Made by a program: the position numbers and the translations under genes | DNA from: Muribaculaceae bacterium Zag1 | GTDB lineage: Bacteria > Bacteroidota > Bacteroidia > Bacteroidales > Muribaculaceae | Assembly (NCBI GenBank): GCA_002633115.1 | Contig: NWBJ01000015.1 | Coordinates: forward strand, 1-33,443 | DNA length: 33,443 nt | Reading direction: 5' to 3' | Part shown: positions 26,541 to 33,443 of the stretch, in pieces | How positions within the stretch are numbered: the first letter of the stretch is position 1 | How the letters are laid out: every line of letters begins with the position of its first letter | Notes under the pieces: model-generated | Told to the model about the DNA's origin: nothing | The model's database searches: none | The model's input: the letters and a program-made list of their open reading frames with translations, nothing else

Positions 26541-28422
<1,882 letters not shown>

Positions 28423-28436
<14 letters not shown>

Positions 28437-29200: not shown

Positions 29201-29234
29201 TTTTGGTTTTTGGTCTTTGGTTTTTAGTTTTTGG
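29201..29234. repeat. TTTTTGGT tandem repeat in the thiE-thiG gap
   Basis: Variants of TTTTGGTTTTTGGTC fill the 24-nt gap and run into the last codons of the thiE fusion, whose stop codon (29224-29226) lies within the array. Confidence 0.8.
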
Positions 29235-30468
29235 AAAAGTTAGACAGTTGGGCGATAAATTGGTGGGTGGCTGAGGTTGGGTCGGGAGCGTTGGAGATGG
29301 CTCCGCTCACGGCTACGCCTTGGGCTCCGACCTTAAGCAGGGATGGCACATCCTCGGGGGTCACTCCTCCGATGGCTACCACGGGCATATCGTGGCCGCT
29401 CGAGCGCATCCAAGAGAATATCTGCTCGTATCCCTCTATGCCAAGCACCGGAGCGAGTTTCTTCTTGGTAGTGGTAAACCGCAACGGCCCAACCCCGGCA
29501 TAATCGGCATTAGCAAAGTCGAGATGCTGCACCTGCTCCAGATTGTTGGCAGTACTGCCTATGATCGCCATTGGACTTAAGAATTGGCGAGCTTGAGCCG
29601 GAGACATGTCATCCTTGCCCAGATGCACACCGTCAATTCTCGTATTTCGAGCCAATGGCACACAGTCGTCTACCAATAAAATGGCTCCAGCCTCTTGGCA
29701 CATCTTCTTTACATTATATATAGCGAGCAGCAGGGTCTTGACTTCAGCCTCCTTCATGCGTATCTGTATCCAGCGGCAGCCGCCTTTCAGCACAGCCTTT
29801 ACTTCCTCCTTGACCTCAGCAGGAGTGGTGCCATTGGTGATATACTGCAGCCCGAAGCGACCGCCACGCCTCATCTTAAGTCTCCTCAACTCCTTATAAG
29901 GGTCTTGCGCTTGCCAGATTGCGCCCAACAAGGCCGCACCTCCGAAACCCATCTTCTCCACCTGGTCAAGGTTCTCAATCGTCACCCCGCCCAAAGCAAT
30001 GACTTTGCCCTTGTGAACAGGGGACAGGTACGTGTGCACATCAGCCTCGGTGTGAACAGGGACCAGTCCCCTGTTCACAGGCCCATACCCTGGCTTTGAT
30101 ATGGAGGGGAAAATGGGCGAAAGAGTGACGTAATCATAATCTTGGGCTTCAGCCAGCTCTTGAATCGAGTGGCAAGAACGCGACAAATGGGACGGGTAAC
30201 CTTCGTAATTAGGATTTCGGCTATTTAGATGGGGACCCAGCAGACCCAGCTCGCCAATCAACGAAAAATGGTCGTGCAACTTGATGCGATCTCTGAAACA
30301 AATAGGAATTTGTTTCAAGATTTCACGCAGTTCCTCCTTATTCAGCCCCGGATGACGCAGATGCATGATATCGACAGCATTGTACTCTAAAGCTGCCGTA
30401 AGGATCTCTCCCTCATCGGGATGAGGGGTCTCTGGAGTAAAGAGCAATATTTGGAATTTATCCTCCAT
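29224..30468 (-). CDS. thiE: TenI-like/thiamine-phosphate synthase fusion
   Basis: This 414-aa protein is a tandem of two thiamine-phosphate-synthase-fold domains. The C-terminal half (about 205-414) has the full ThiE set: QIRMKEAEV, LLVDDCVPLA, GVHLGKDDM, GSTANNLEQV, GVGPLRFTTTKK and VVAIGGV. It should couple HMP diphosphate with thiazole phosphate. The N-terminal half (IMHLRHP, KLHDHF, YVTLSPIFPSISKPGYG, VIALGGV) lacks several of these residues and resembles TenI, the thiazole tautomerase. Residues 130-153 (PVNRGLVPVH...LSPVHKG) are encoded by an inserted palindromic element. Its start overlaps the thiS stop by 11 nt. The final residues SKN are encoded by repeat DNA. Confidence 0.9.
   Translation of the reverse strand: MEDKFQILLFTPETPHPDEGEILTAALEYNAVDIMHLRHPGLNKEELREILKQIPICFRDRIKLHDHFSLIGELGLLGPHLNSRNPNYEGYPSHLSRSCHSIQELAEAQDYDYVTLSPIFPSISKPGYGPVNRGLVPVHTEADVHTYLSPVHKGKVIALGGVTIENLDQVEKMGFGGAALLGAIWQAQDPYKELRRLKMRRGGRFGLQYITNGTTPAEVKEEVKAVLKGGCRWIQIRMKEAEVKTLLLAIYNVKKMCQEAGAILLVDDCVPLARNTRIDGVHLGKDDMSPAQARQFLSPMAIIGSTANNLEQVQHLDFANADYAGVGPLRFTTTKKKLAPVLGIEGYEQIFSWMRSSGHDMPVVAIGGVTPEDVPSLLKVGAQGVAVSGAISNAPDPTSATHQFIAQLSNFSKN
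30012..30079. repeat. In-frame palindromic element inside thiE
   Basis: TGTGAACAGGGGAC (30012-30025) is the inverted copy of GTCCCCTGTTCACA (30066-30079), and a further direct copy TGTGAACAGGGAC lies at 30051-30063. The whole 68-nt unit is open in the coding frame. Its GGGGACAGGT core also occurs in the element inside thiD, and both elements are read in the same phase. Confidence 0.92.
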
Positions 30469-30658
30469 AGGCTGCGGATATTATCAGCACATTGTCGTTG
30501 GGATTGAGCACTATTGCCTCCCAATCGGCGCGTTTGGCAATCTTGTCGTTGAGGGCAACGGCGGTGCCCCGCTCCGGCACATTCAGCTCCTTTACCAATT
30601 GAGCCAAGGTCAAGCCCTCAGCCACCTCTTGTTTTTCATCGTTTACTATAATCTGCAT
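30458..30658 (-). CDS. thiS: Sulfur-carrier protein ThiS
   Basis: This is a 66-aa ubiquitin-fold sulfur carrier. It ends in the essential Gly-Gly (ISAAYGG), which ThiF adenylates and which then bears the thiocarboxylate used by ThiG. The ATG at 30658 (MQIIVNDEKQEV) is preferred over one 12 nt further upstream, which lies in the TTTTTCAT repeat. QIIVNDEKQEVAEGLTLAQLV is the usual beta-grasp start. Its stop overlaps the start of thiE by 11 nt. Confidence 0.95.
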   Translation of the reverse strand: MQIIVNDEKQEVAEGLTLAQLVKELNVPERGTAVALNDKIAKRADWEAIVLNPNDNVLIISAAYGG

Positions 30659-30661
30659 AGT

Positions 30662-30704
30662 ATTTTTCATTTTTCATTTTTCATTCTTCATTTTTCATTC
30701 TCCC
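30662..30704. repeat. TTTTTCAT tandem repeat in the thiD-thiS gap
   Basis: Five TTTTTCAT/TTCTTCAT units lie between the genes and extend over the thiD stop (30688-30690), so its last residues NEK are encoded by repeat sequence. Confidence 0.82.
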
Positions 30705-31584
30705 ATCCGTGTCTCACAGAGCCATGGCCATGGCCCAATTCATAATCAGCGCCGGCGGCGATGGCGTGCTGCAGCCAATCGATGGCGCGTTCTACTGCCT
30801 GCGGCACATCCTCCCCCTTGGCCAAGAAGCAAGCGATGGCTGTGGAGAGGGAGCAGCCGGTGCCGTGGGTGTTGACCGTGTCAACCAGCGGATGGCGAAA
30901 TTCGCATTCAGTGCCCTTCCACCAAAGCCGATCAACCAGCACCCGCCCATCGCCATGGCCTCCCTTGACCAACACCCCGATCCAGCCATAGAGACTCGCG
31001 ATAGCCGATGGCGTAATTCCCTTGGGTATAAATGGCGAAAAGAATCGATCCACCGTCTCCCGAAACGGAGCCTCCTCTCCCACAGGGGACAGGTCAGCGT
31101 GGGAGCCCTGTTCTCCCACAGGTACCTGTCCCCTGTGGGAGAACAGGGCGGTTGCCTCGGGGAGGTTGGGGGTGATGAGGGTGGCGAGGGGGAAGACGCG
31201 CTTGGCGAGCACGGCGATGGCCGAGCTGTCGCTGAGGGCGTCGCCTGAGGTGGCTACCATCACGGGGTCGAGCACTATGCGTTTGAGTTGGAATTTTTCG
31301 ATGGCATCAGCTATGGCATTGGCGCAGTCGGCATCGGGAACCATGCCGATTTTTACGGCATCGGGCATCACGTCGGAGCATACGGCCTCGAGCTGCTCAG
31401 CCAGAAGCTTAGCCCCGACCGACTGGTAAGAGACTACGCCGCACGTGTTTTGGGCTGTGACGGCGGTAATGGCCGTCATGGCATAGACATCGAGGGCGCA
31501 GCAGGTCTTTATATCGGCCTGTATGCCCGCACCGCCAATGGAATCGCTCCCGGCAATCGACAAAACTGTGGTGTACTTTTTCAT
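30688..31584 (-). CDS. thiD: Hydroxymethylpyrimidine (phosphate) kinase
   Basis: This 298-aa ribokinase-fold enzyme phosphorylates HMP and HMP-phosphate, giving the diphosphate used by ThiE. VLSIAGSDSIGGAGIQADIKTC at the start, MPDAVKIGMV, RIVLDPVMVATSGD and HGTGCSLSTAIACFLAKG near the end (anion hole with catalytic Cys) are all typical. Length is larger than the usual ~265 aa because residues 146-170 (about FSHRGQVPVGE...LSPVGEE) come from a palindromic DNA element inserted in frame between NLPEATALF and the rest of the domain. The start follows the TPP riboswitch by about 50 nt. It heads the thiamine operon. Confidence 0.95.
   Translation of the reverse strand: MKKYTTVLSIAGSDSIGGAGIQADIKTCCALDVYAMTAITAVTAQNTCGVVSYQSVGAKLLAEQLEAVCSDVMPDAVKIGMVPDADCANAIADAIEKFQLKRIVLDPVMVATSGDALSDSSAIAVLAKRVFPLATLITPNLPEATALFSHRGQVPVGEQGSHADLSPVGEEAPFRETVDRFFSPFIPKGITPSAIASLYGWIGVLVKGGHGDGRVLVDRLWWKGTECEFRHPLVDTVNTHGTGCSLSTAIACFLAKGEDVPQAVERAIDWLQHAIAAGADYELGHGHGSVRHGWENEK
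31076..31148. repeat. In-frame palindromic element inside thiD
   Basis: TCTCCCACAGGGGACAGG (31076-31093) and CCTGTCCCCTGTGGGAGA (31125-31142) are a perfect 18-bp inverted repeat. An inner hairpin GTGGGAG/CTCCCAC sits at 31099-31119, and GGGAGAACAGGG (31137-31148) is the complement of 31106-31117. The unit is open in the thiD frame and shares ACAGGGGACAGGT with the element in thiE. Confidence 0.93.
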
Positions 31585-31635
31585 CTTATCGGCTTTAATA
31601 AAGCAAGCCCATATAGATGACGTGCGATGAGCTTT

Positions 31636-31735
31636 GGCTCTTATCCCTACGGCAGCATTACCTGCATCAGGTTATAAGGGTATAATCTCAGCCGGAGCAG
31701 AATCGCCCGACACCCCTTGCGAGCCTTGGCTCGCA
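31636..31735 (-). promoter_or_regulatory. TPP riboswitch with competing upstream hairpin
   Basis: Read on the minus strand, the THI-box core is complete: GGGGTG, CTGAGATTATACCC, ACCTGATGCAGGTAATGC and GTAGGGA. P1 can form between GGCTC (31721-31725) and GAGCC (31636-31640). Immediately upstream a perfect hairpin TGCGAGCC/GGCTCGCA (31718-31735) uses the same GGCTC, so the two structures exclude each other. The switch controls the whole thiD-thiF operon; TPP binding is expected to lower expression. Confidence 0.95.
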
Positions 31736-32732: not shown

Positions 32733-33419
32733 ATGGATAGCATGTTTGAAATACTCACTAATCTCCCGCTATTTCGGGGTGTGACCCACGAGCGCATAGC
32801 CGCAACCGTGGGAATGGCCAAATTCCATTTCCTCAAATATTCACCCGGCGAAACAGTAGTGGAGGCAGGCGAACCTTGCACACATATCAAATTCATAATA
32901 GACGGGAGTGTGCGCATCAGCATTGCCAATAGCGACGACCGTTTCCGCATCAGCCAAACCCTTAAGGCGCCAGATGTAATCAGTCCCGACTTCTTGTTTG
33001 GCAGCTCGACCATATACCCCGGCAAGGGCGTAGCGGTCGAGGAAGCCAGCATCGTGCAAGTATCAAAGAGCGACTATGTCAAGATCCTGGCCTCAGACGA
33101 GATATTCATGTTCAACTTCCTCAACTACCTGTCGATGAATGCGCAGAAATGCATCGAGGGCGTATTGGCTATGACCGGCGGCAGCATCGAGGAGCGCTTG
33201 GCCATGTGGGTAATTGCCCTCACCCAGCCCACCGCTCAAGACATCACCATCACATGCCGGCAGAGAGACCTCTATGCTATGTTTGGGGTGCAGCGCAGCA
33301 GCTACATCGCCGCCCTCGACCACCTGGTCGAGATGGGATGCATCACCTACGCCCCCGGCGAAATCACCGTCACCTCGCGCCGAGCCATGCTATCCGTGAT
33401 GCGCGACGGCATAGAATGA
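32733..33419 (+). CDS. Crp/Fnr-family transcriptional regulator
   Basis: This 228-aa protein has an N-terminal cyclic-nucleotide-binding-like beta-roll (LPLFRGVTHERIAATV, FLKYSPGETVVEAGEPCTHIKFIIDG, DFLFGSSTIYP) and a C-terminal winged helix. The recognition helix region is RQRDLYAMFGVQRSSYIAALDHLVEMGCI. No cysteine quartet for an Fe-S cluster is visible, and the cAMP-contacting residues of E. coli Crp are not evident, so the signal is unknown. Such regulators in Bacteroidales usually sense metabolic or stress signals. The gene lies about 135 nt after the beta-barrel gene in the same direction. A further ATGAAAAA-type repeat starts at its stop codon. Confidence 0.87.
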   Translation: MDSMFEILTNLPLFRGVTHERIAATVGMAKFHFLKYSPGETVVEAGEPCTHIKFIIDGSVRISIANSDDRFRISQTLKAPDVISPDFLFGSSTIYPGKGVAVEEASIVQVSKSDYVKILASDEIFMFNFLNYLSMNAQKCIEGVLAMTGGSIEERLAMWVIALTQPTAQDITITCRQRDLYAMFGVQRSSYIAALDHLVEMGCITYAPGEITVTSRRAMLSVMRDGIE

Positions 33420-33443
33420 TAAATGAAAAATGAATAATGAAAA
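33419..33443. repeat. ATGAAAAATGAATA-type repeat at the window end
   Basis: The sequence after the regulator stop is again the ATGAAAAATGAATAATGAAAA repeat family; its end is cut by the window. Confidence 0.7.

Follow-up and report, generated by a model that had tools for sequence, protein, structure and literature searches.

Two genes of the thiamine operon of Muribaculaceae bacterium Zag1, thiE and thiD, each carry two short facing hairpins, which lie in frame and leave the coding sequence free of stops. These inserts very probably belong to a family of short mobile palindromes that is specific to the lineage, REP-like and closest to the TIR repeats of TIRYT genes. The dispersal of the repeats and the flanking of transposase genes by their copies suggest that the family moves by transposition. 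The window referred to below is the whole stretch of DNA that was analysed (contig NWBJ01000015.1, 33,443 nucleotides).

Paired hairpins within thiE and thiD

A TPP riboswitch is located at positions 31627-31727 of the window, and the minus-strand genes thiD, thiE and thiG, the last of which was named by Pfam, lie downstream of it. Two TenI/ThiE-type domains are fused in the product of thiE (Pfam TMP-TENI, two stretches), and the insert falls in the N-terminal half of the fusion. A plasmid search with the thiE-thiD DNA returned zero matches. The window also contains AT-rich tandem repeats of the TTTTTCAT / TTATTCAT type (28383-28434, 30662-30699 and 33413-33443, the last oriented oppositely), which are placed in or beside three intergenic gaps.

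Table 1. Host genes and REP-like hairpins in the thiamine operon; positions refer to the window.
Feature	Positions	Strand	Details
thiE host gene	29224..30468	-	414 aa; frame open across insert; named by Pfam and NCBIfam thiE
REP-like hairpin 1 in thiE	30012..30040	+	TGTGAAC subfamily
REP-like hairpin 2 in thiE	30051..30079	-	inverted relative to hairpin 1
thiD host gene	30688..31584	-	298 aa; frame open across insert; named by Pfam and NCBIfam
REP-like hairpin 1 in thiD	31078..31104	+	TCCCAC subfamily; 27/27 identical to copy flanking C34 transposase gene
REP-like hairpin 2 in thiD	31114..31140	-	inverted relative to hairpin 1

The inserts occupy positions 30012-30079 in thiE and 31076-31148 in thiD, coordinates which proved correct when the window was read again, and they encode about residues 130-153 and 146-170 of the respective proteins. 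The inverted-repeat arms are 86% complementary in thiE (30012-30040 and 30051-30079, with a spacing of 10 nt) and 83% complementary in thiD (31071-31105 and 31113-31147, with a spacing of 7 nt). The core ACAGGGGACAGGT is found exactly at 30017, at 31082 and, on the minus strand, at 31124, and a copy with one mismatch is present at 30062, again on the minus strand.

The original prediction had described a single palindrome of about 70 nt in each gene. The self-complementarity of the stretch stood, but each stretch consists of two separate hairpins arranged as a doublet, and each pair folds as one long hairpin, whether as RNA or as DNA. The arms, which differ between the two genes, had moreover been taken to have co-varied. 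Both stems recur elsewhere in the genome, each with the same arms, and the difference between the thiE and thiD copies is therefore one between two stem subfamilies; no co-variation was seen within one lineage. Translation confirmed that the two inserts give related peptides, VNRGLVPVH...LSPVH in thiE and SHRGQVPVG...LSPVG in thiD.

When synonymous codons were shuffled within the gene, the observed inverted-repeat score was reached in 0/200 cases for thiE and in 0/200 for thiD. Folding of the two coding-strand inserts gave z values of -5.5 and -7.7, and none of 200 shuffles folded as well in either case. Together with the genome-wide count of the core given below, the shuffles established the in-frame palindromes of both genes as real. 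Less telling is the 8-mer CAGGGGAC, which in the window alone has 4 matches vs 0.86 expected, a number reached by 2/100 shuffles.

The repeat family and its candidate transposases

In the 4.46 Mb draft genome the core ACAGGGGACAGGT is present in 22 exact copies, and the backward-read control has 0. Searches for the core with one mismatch had a noisy control (39 vs 20 here and 33 vs 13 in a sister species of the same genus), and for this reason exact patterns were chosen for the counts. The family units are hairpins whose inner part is constant and whose stems are variable (TCCCAC, TGTGAAC, TGTGTAC, TGCAAC and others), the copies in thiE having the TGTGAAC stem and those in thiD the TCCCAC stem. 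A related second class consists of near-perfect 25-base palindromes, e.g. GGTACAGGGGACTGTCCCCTGTACC, with 23 among the listed sites of this genome and 5 among those of the sister. The pattern ACAGGGGACNG gave 90 matches here vs 10 in the control, and 36 vs 2 in the sister.

Among the extra matches of the one-mismatch search was a variant repeat with the core ACACGGGACAGGT, observed in six copies on contig 19 (811-9616) and in five on contig 264 of the sister. Most of its copies have no good coding frame around them, and one copy in the sister forms the last codons of a frame of 368 codons.

Repeat clusters numbered 73 in all, 49 of them from this genome and 24 from the sister. Before counting, nine clusters of this genome were left out, which leaves it 40 kept sites. 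Seven of these clusters (C132, C133, two on C134, C136:202074 and two on C97) were dropped since they have a different, longer repeated context in common; this longer repeat, which places ACAGGGGACTG beside CACCAACAA..CTAAGGTGG on contigs 132, 133, 134, 136 and 97, is possibly a separate miniature element. Two clusters on C81 were dropped as not palindromic, and the position of one of them, C81:17854, in a coding-like frame was taken as chance. None of the 24 sister clusters was dropped, though some (e.g. C203) are not palindromic.

Five Y1_Tnp matches were obtained in this genome, and two tyrosine transposase genes, C34 and C131, have family copies on either side. The C34 gene (C34:97272-98072) encodes a protein which scores above the Y1_Tnp cut-off and contains the motifs NHIH and YIHQNP, and it has one family copy upstream and four downstream. 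Its sole NCBIfam match is the REP-transposase model NF047646, with 54.9 bits vs a cut-off of 80. The C131 gene (contig 131, 1114-1722; 202 codons) encodes a protein 30% identical to that of C34, with the middle part absent and a score of 20.2 bits, below cut-off, against the NCBIfam REP-transposase model; copies with the TGCAAC stem are found on both of its sides. Two transposases that each have a different stem and the same core are as expected for coevolving REP-transposase pairs. A transposase matching the TGTGAAC subfamily, to which the thiE copy belongs, was looked for and none was found.

The sequence link between the C34 gene and the genic copies is close. Among nine loci examined, exact copies of the 27-mer TCCCACAGGGGACAGGTCAGCGTGGGA are present in rsmF, on C116, next to the C34 transposase gene and in the thiD genes of both species, and the rsmF copy also has the GGCTGCGCC extension, nine further bases of the transposase-flanking copy. 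The Y1_Tnp genes on C66 and on C206 of the sister are adjoined by repeats of other sequence (the GGCGCGCCACAGAACCGG and CTTAGCGGCGTGC types). The sister has two Y1_Tnp matches, and neither belongs to the C34 type (one has 23% identity over 84 residues, the other no match), so that the repeat copies of the sister may be relics, or the C34-type gene may be unassembled there. Homologues of the C34 transposase were detected in 132/393 genomes of the order, the best outside this genome reaching 36% identity, and a GGGGAC-like string was present at only 2/29 of the non-own homologue loci examined.

Genic copies and their remodelling in a sister species

One hairpin of the same family is located in dapF, and an rsmF-like gene contains one hairpin together with three second-class palindromes, all of them in frame. 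A restriction of the elements to the thiamine genes consequently does not hold, since these two genes carry them as well and most sites are extragenic: 4 of the 40 kept sites were judged intragenic (thiE, thiD, dapF and rsmF) and 36 outside genes, in a count made by judgement. In the sister, 3 of the 24 were judged intragenic (thiE, thiD and dapF). The call was our own, made from homologues and from a codon score trained on 13 genes of the window, and a site was scored as outside a gene when it reached no further than some forty codons into a frame running from stop to stop, examples being C68:18459, C136:155933 and C24:39246 here and C274:3633, C23 and C203 in the sister. The comparison of copies inside and outside genes that had been proposed with the prediction was thus carried out, and the four intragenic sites are all in frame, a state which is expected from selection alone for genic copies that survive.

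Among 99 genomes searched, the exact core is present in two, this one and the sister species; it is absent from the 47 other genomes of the genus, the 10 of the family and the 40 of the order that were searched. The two repeat-bearing species have genomes of 4.1-4.5 Mb, and the other 47 genus members searched have genomes of 1.8-2.9 Mb. The search of related genomes suggested at the outset therefore places the core in the sister only. A scan of a named genome collection for CCCACAGGGGACAGGTNNNNGTGGG, from which the window's own genome may be excluded, returned one record, in thiD of the metagenome-assembled genome Bacteroidales bacterium isolate U_126944; the thiD flanks match those of the sister, and the two are therefore probably the same assembly.

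The two species differ in the number of hairpins at the same gene positions. In thiE and in thiD the sister has a single hairpin vs the doublet of the window, being 15 codons shorter overall in thiE and 12 codons shorter in thiD. In dapF a single hairpin of identical type is present in both species, with two differences inside it. The comparison of rsmF ends early, as the sister contig stops before the insert site. A set of 11 intergenic orthologous pairs, which we selected, was also aligned: three show a change between single hairpin and doublet (C1:11454, C68 and C124:18965), four keep one palindrome in both species (C44:9417, C26, C38:11653 and C30), and the remaining four are too altered on one side to be judged (C116, C136:155933, C44:9598 and C44:2278).

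The insert peptide is absent from the aligned homologues of the other relatives (7 of thiE, 14 of thiD, 5 of dapF and 9 of rsmF), and GGGGACAGG occurs in 0/35 of these loci. The thiE and thiD genes of the other relatives, against which the prediction was to be checked, accordingly have neither the palindrome nor the peptide. In thiE the insert takes the place of a short native stretch that follows SISKPGY and precedes the next strand, and it is thus not a clean addition. A cleanly empty orthologous site was not seen for the genic copies, those of thiE, thiD and dapF being occupied in both species.

Affinities and origin of the inserts

As short imperfect palindromes dispersed in many copies, the units resemble REP elements in the broad sense. 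Their closest counterparts are the TIR repeats, which flank a RAYT-like tyrosine transposase gene, as here, and of which some are self-complementary, form dimers or clusters and are dispersed (PMC3733652). The TIR repeats of TIRYT genes, or 'TIRtrons', were reported in 2013 to have a common GGGGWSAS motif (PMC3733652), with which the core GGGGACAG agrees, in a match that rests on an 8-base consensus. They differ in that sections 15, 16 and 17 of the same source report copies within genes for the GTAG and the CGTC repeats but not for TIRs. The GTAG REPs and REPINs with their RAYTs are alike in forming single hairpins and inverted doublets, mostly extragenic and tied to a transposase (PMC3733652; PMC3116915), and in being found partly in frame within genes, as dimers and clusters too (PMC3733652). 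Here, however, the usual REP tag GTAG precedes the core at a distance of up to 18 nt on the 5' side in only 4 of 44 units, and the constant part lies inside the hairpin while the stems vary; judged from the 5' side, the family does not look like GTAG REPs.

The Rickettsia palindromic elements, which the original prediction had named as precedent, are an apt one: RPE-1 to RPE-7 also keep frames unbroken, fall in exposed parts of proteins and often occupy the same site in orthologues (PMC3767692; PMC3733652), although they have another sequence and belong to another phylum. RPE-4 and RPE-6 are CGTC repeats, for which PMC3733652 reports that no flanked transposase gene was found, whereas transposase genes are flanked here; CGTC stands beside 1 of 44 units on the 5' side, and judged from that side the family does not look like CGTC REPs. 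A nearer precedent is provided by the REP and TIR repeats that go with tyrosine transposases; their in-frame insertion into genes, also as dimers, has been published (PMC3733652). In several species, in-frame REPs within genes add 20-30 aa as dimers or groups and 43-82 aa as clusters, and the argument that intragenic REPs settle in loops and linkers has already been made (both PMC3733652). The C34 protein may be related to TnpA_REP subclass 2.6 of Bacteroidetes, with which it was compared by motif: NH[LIV]H and YIH[QN]NP fit NHIH and YIHQNP, the table giving WQ and the C34 protein having FQ, and genes of this subclass likewise have atypical hairpins on their flanks that recur at other genomic places (PMC6006769). 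A literature search on palindromes in thiE and thiD left intact the earlier statement that the family had not been described in thiamine genes, and searches for REP elements with RAYTs in Bacteroides and for REP elements within coding sequences with RAYTs found nothing.

In the proposed mechanism, an HUH tyrosine transposase, of the C34 type for the TCCCAC subfamily, would cut the single-stranded hairpin and copy it elsewhere; in E. coli, single-stranded REPs are processed by such a transposase (PMC8266576; PMC3733652). Insertions into genes would persist only if they preserve the reading frame by their length, bring in no stop codon and fall in a surface loop or linker, and the inserted peptide would be tolerated, not used. 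Hairpins already in place would then switch between the single form and the inverted doublet, either through the transposase or through replication slippage or template switching at palindromes, and inside genes only changes of whole codons would persist. Slippage at palindromes may account for the single/doublet changes equally well. The further idea that the family is suited to genes, having few stops, one preferred register and whole-codon changes of length, and is thus a mobile source of surface loops, appears unlikely to us; if true, palindromes would supply new surface loops to housekeeping enzymes. In the six consensus units examined, 4 to 6 of the 6 frames lack stops.

An origin of the hairpins in assembly artefact or chance is scarcely credible. 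The draft assemblies are fragmented (137 and about 280 contigs), and the interruption of the C34 repeat array by a run of N, like the early end of the sister rsmF contig, indicates that the repeats trouble assembly, but two assemblies carry elements at orthologous sites whose flanks have diverged, and both the genome control and the codon shuffles of each gene speak against chance. It is very improbable that the hairpins are kept for a role in the mRNA of the thiamine operon, as elongation brakes or RNase barriers which set the thiD : thiE ratio. Such a role would suit the position of both inserts downstream of the TPP riboswitch and the high predicted stability of their RNA (-37.4 and -55.4 kcal/mol), yet the same elements are also found in dapF, in rsmF and at many other sites, and the sister has shorter single hairpins at both the thiE and the thiD places. 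Moreover, translating ribosomes would be expected to unfold such hairpins.

A co-option of the insert peptides, with selection acting on their protein sequence and in one register in every host gene, is very improbable. The REP proper is indeed read in one register in all four host genes (RGQV / RGLV / LSPV), with a probability of about 0.04 (0.4 x 0.4 x 0.5 x 0.5, open frames being taken as equally likely; a post hoc figure for four genes), and both differences within the dapF insert are synonymous. The carriers, however, are four unrelated proteins, and the inserts of thiE and thiD differ in length between the sisters, whereas both proteins are otherwise conserved. Structure models also give the inserts little confidence: in the AlphaFold prediction for thiE (mean pLDDT 86.2, with 27 residues below 50) the sole listed stretch of at least three residues with pLDDT below 50 is 131-151, within the element-encoded part, and in that of thiD (mean pLDDT 75.9) values below 50 are found at 154-184, overlapping the element-encoded residues, and at the C-terminus (282-298), the input alignments being shallow (9 and 10 sequences). 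The host genes are maintained under purifying selection, as dN/dS between the two species is 0.16 for thiE, 0.14 for thiD, 0.10 for dapF and 0.20 for rsmF (N-terminal part). Both this selection and the overlap of the inserts with low-confidence parts of the two models speak for copies of a mobile palindrome family.

With the inserts read as copies of a mobile palindrome family, the phenomenon itself is already described, and the remodelling between sister species is the most useful new element. The in-frame palindromes of the family and a candidate transposase are found together in this genome, a combination which, according to PMC3733652, was not found for the CGTC-type Rickettsia elements, and the sister pair offers the same genes with a different copy number of elements. 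The pair and the candidate transposase together make it testable whether such palindromes enter genes by transposition, and whether the peptides they encode are tolerated or used by the enzymes which carry them.
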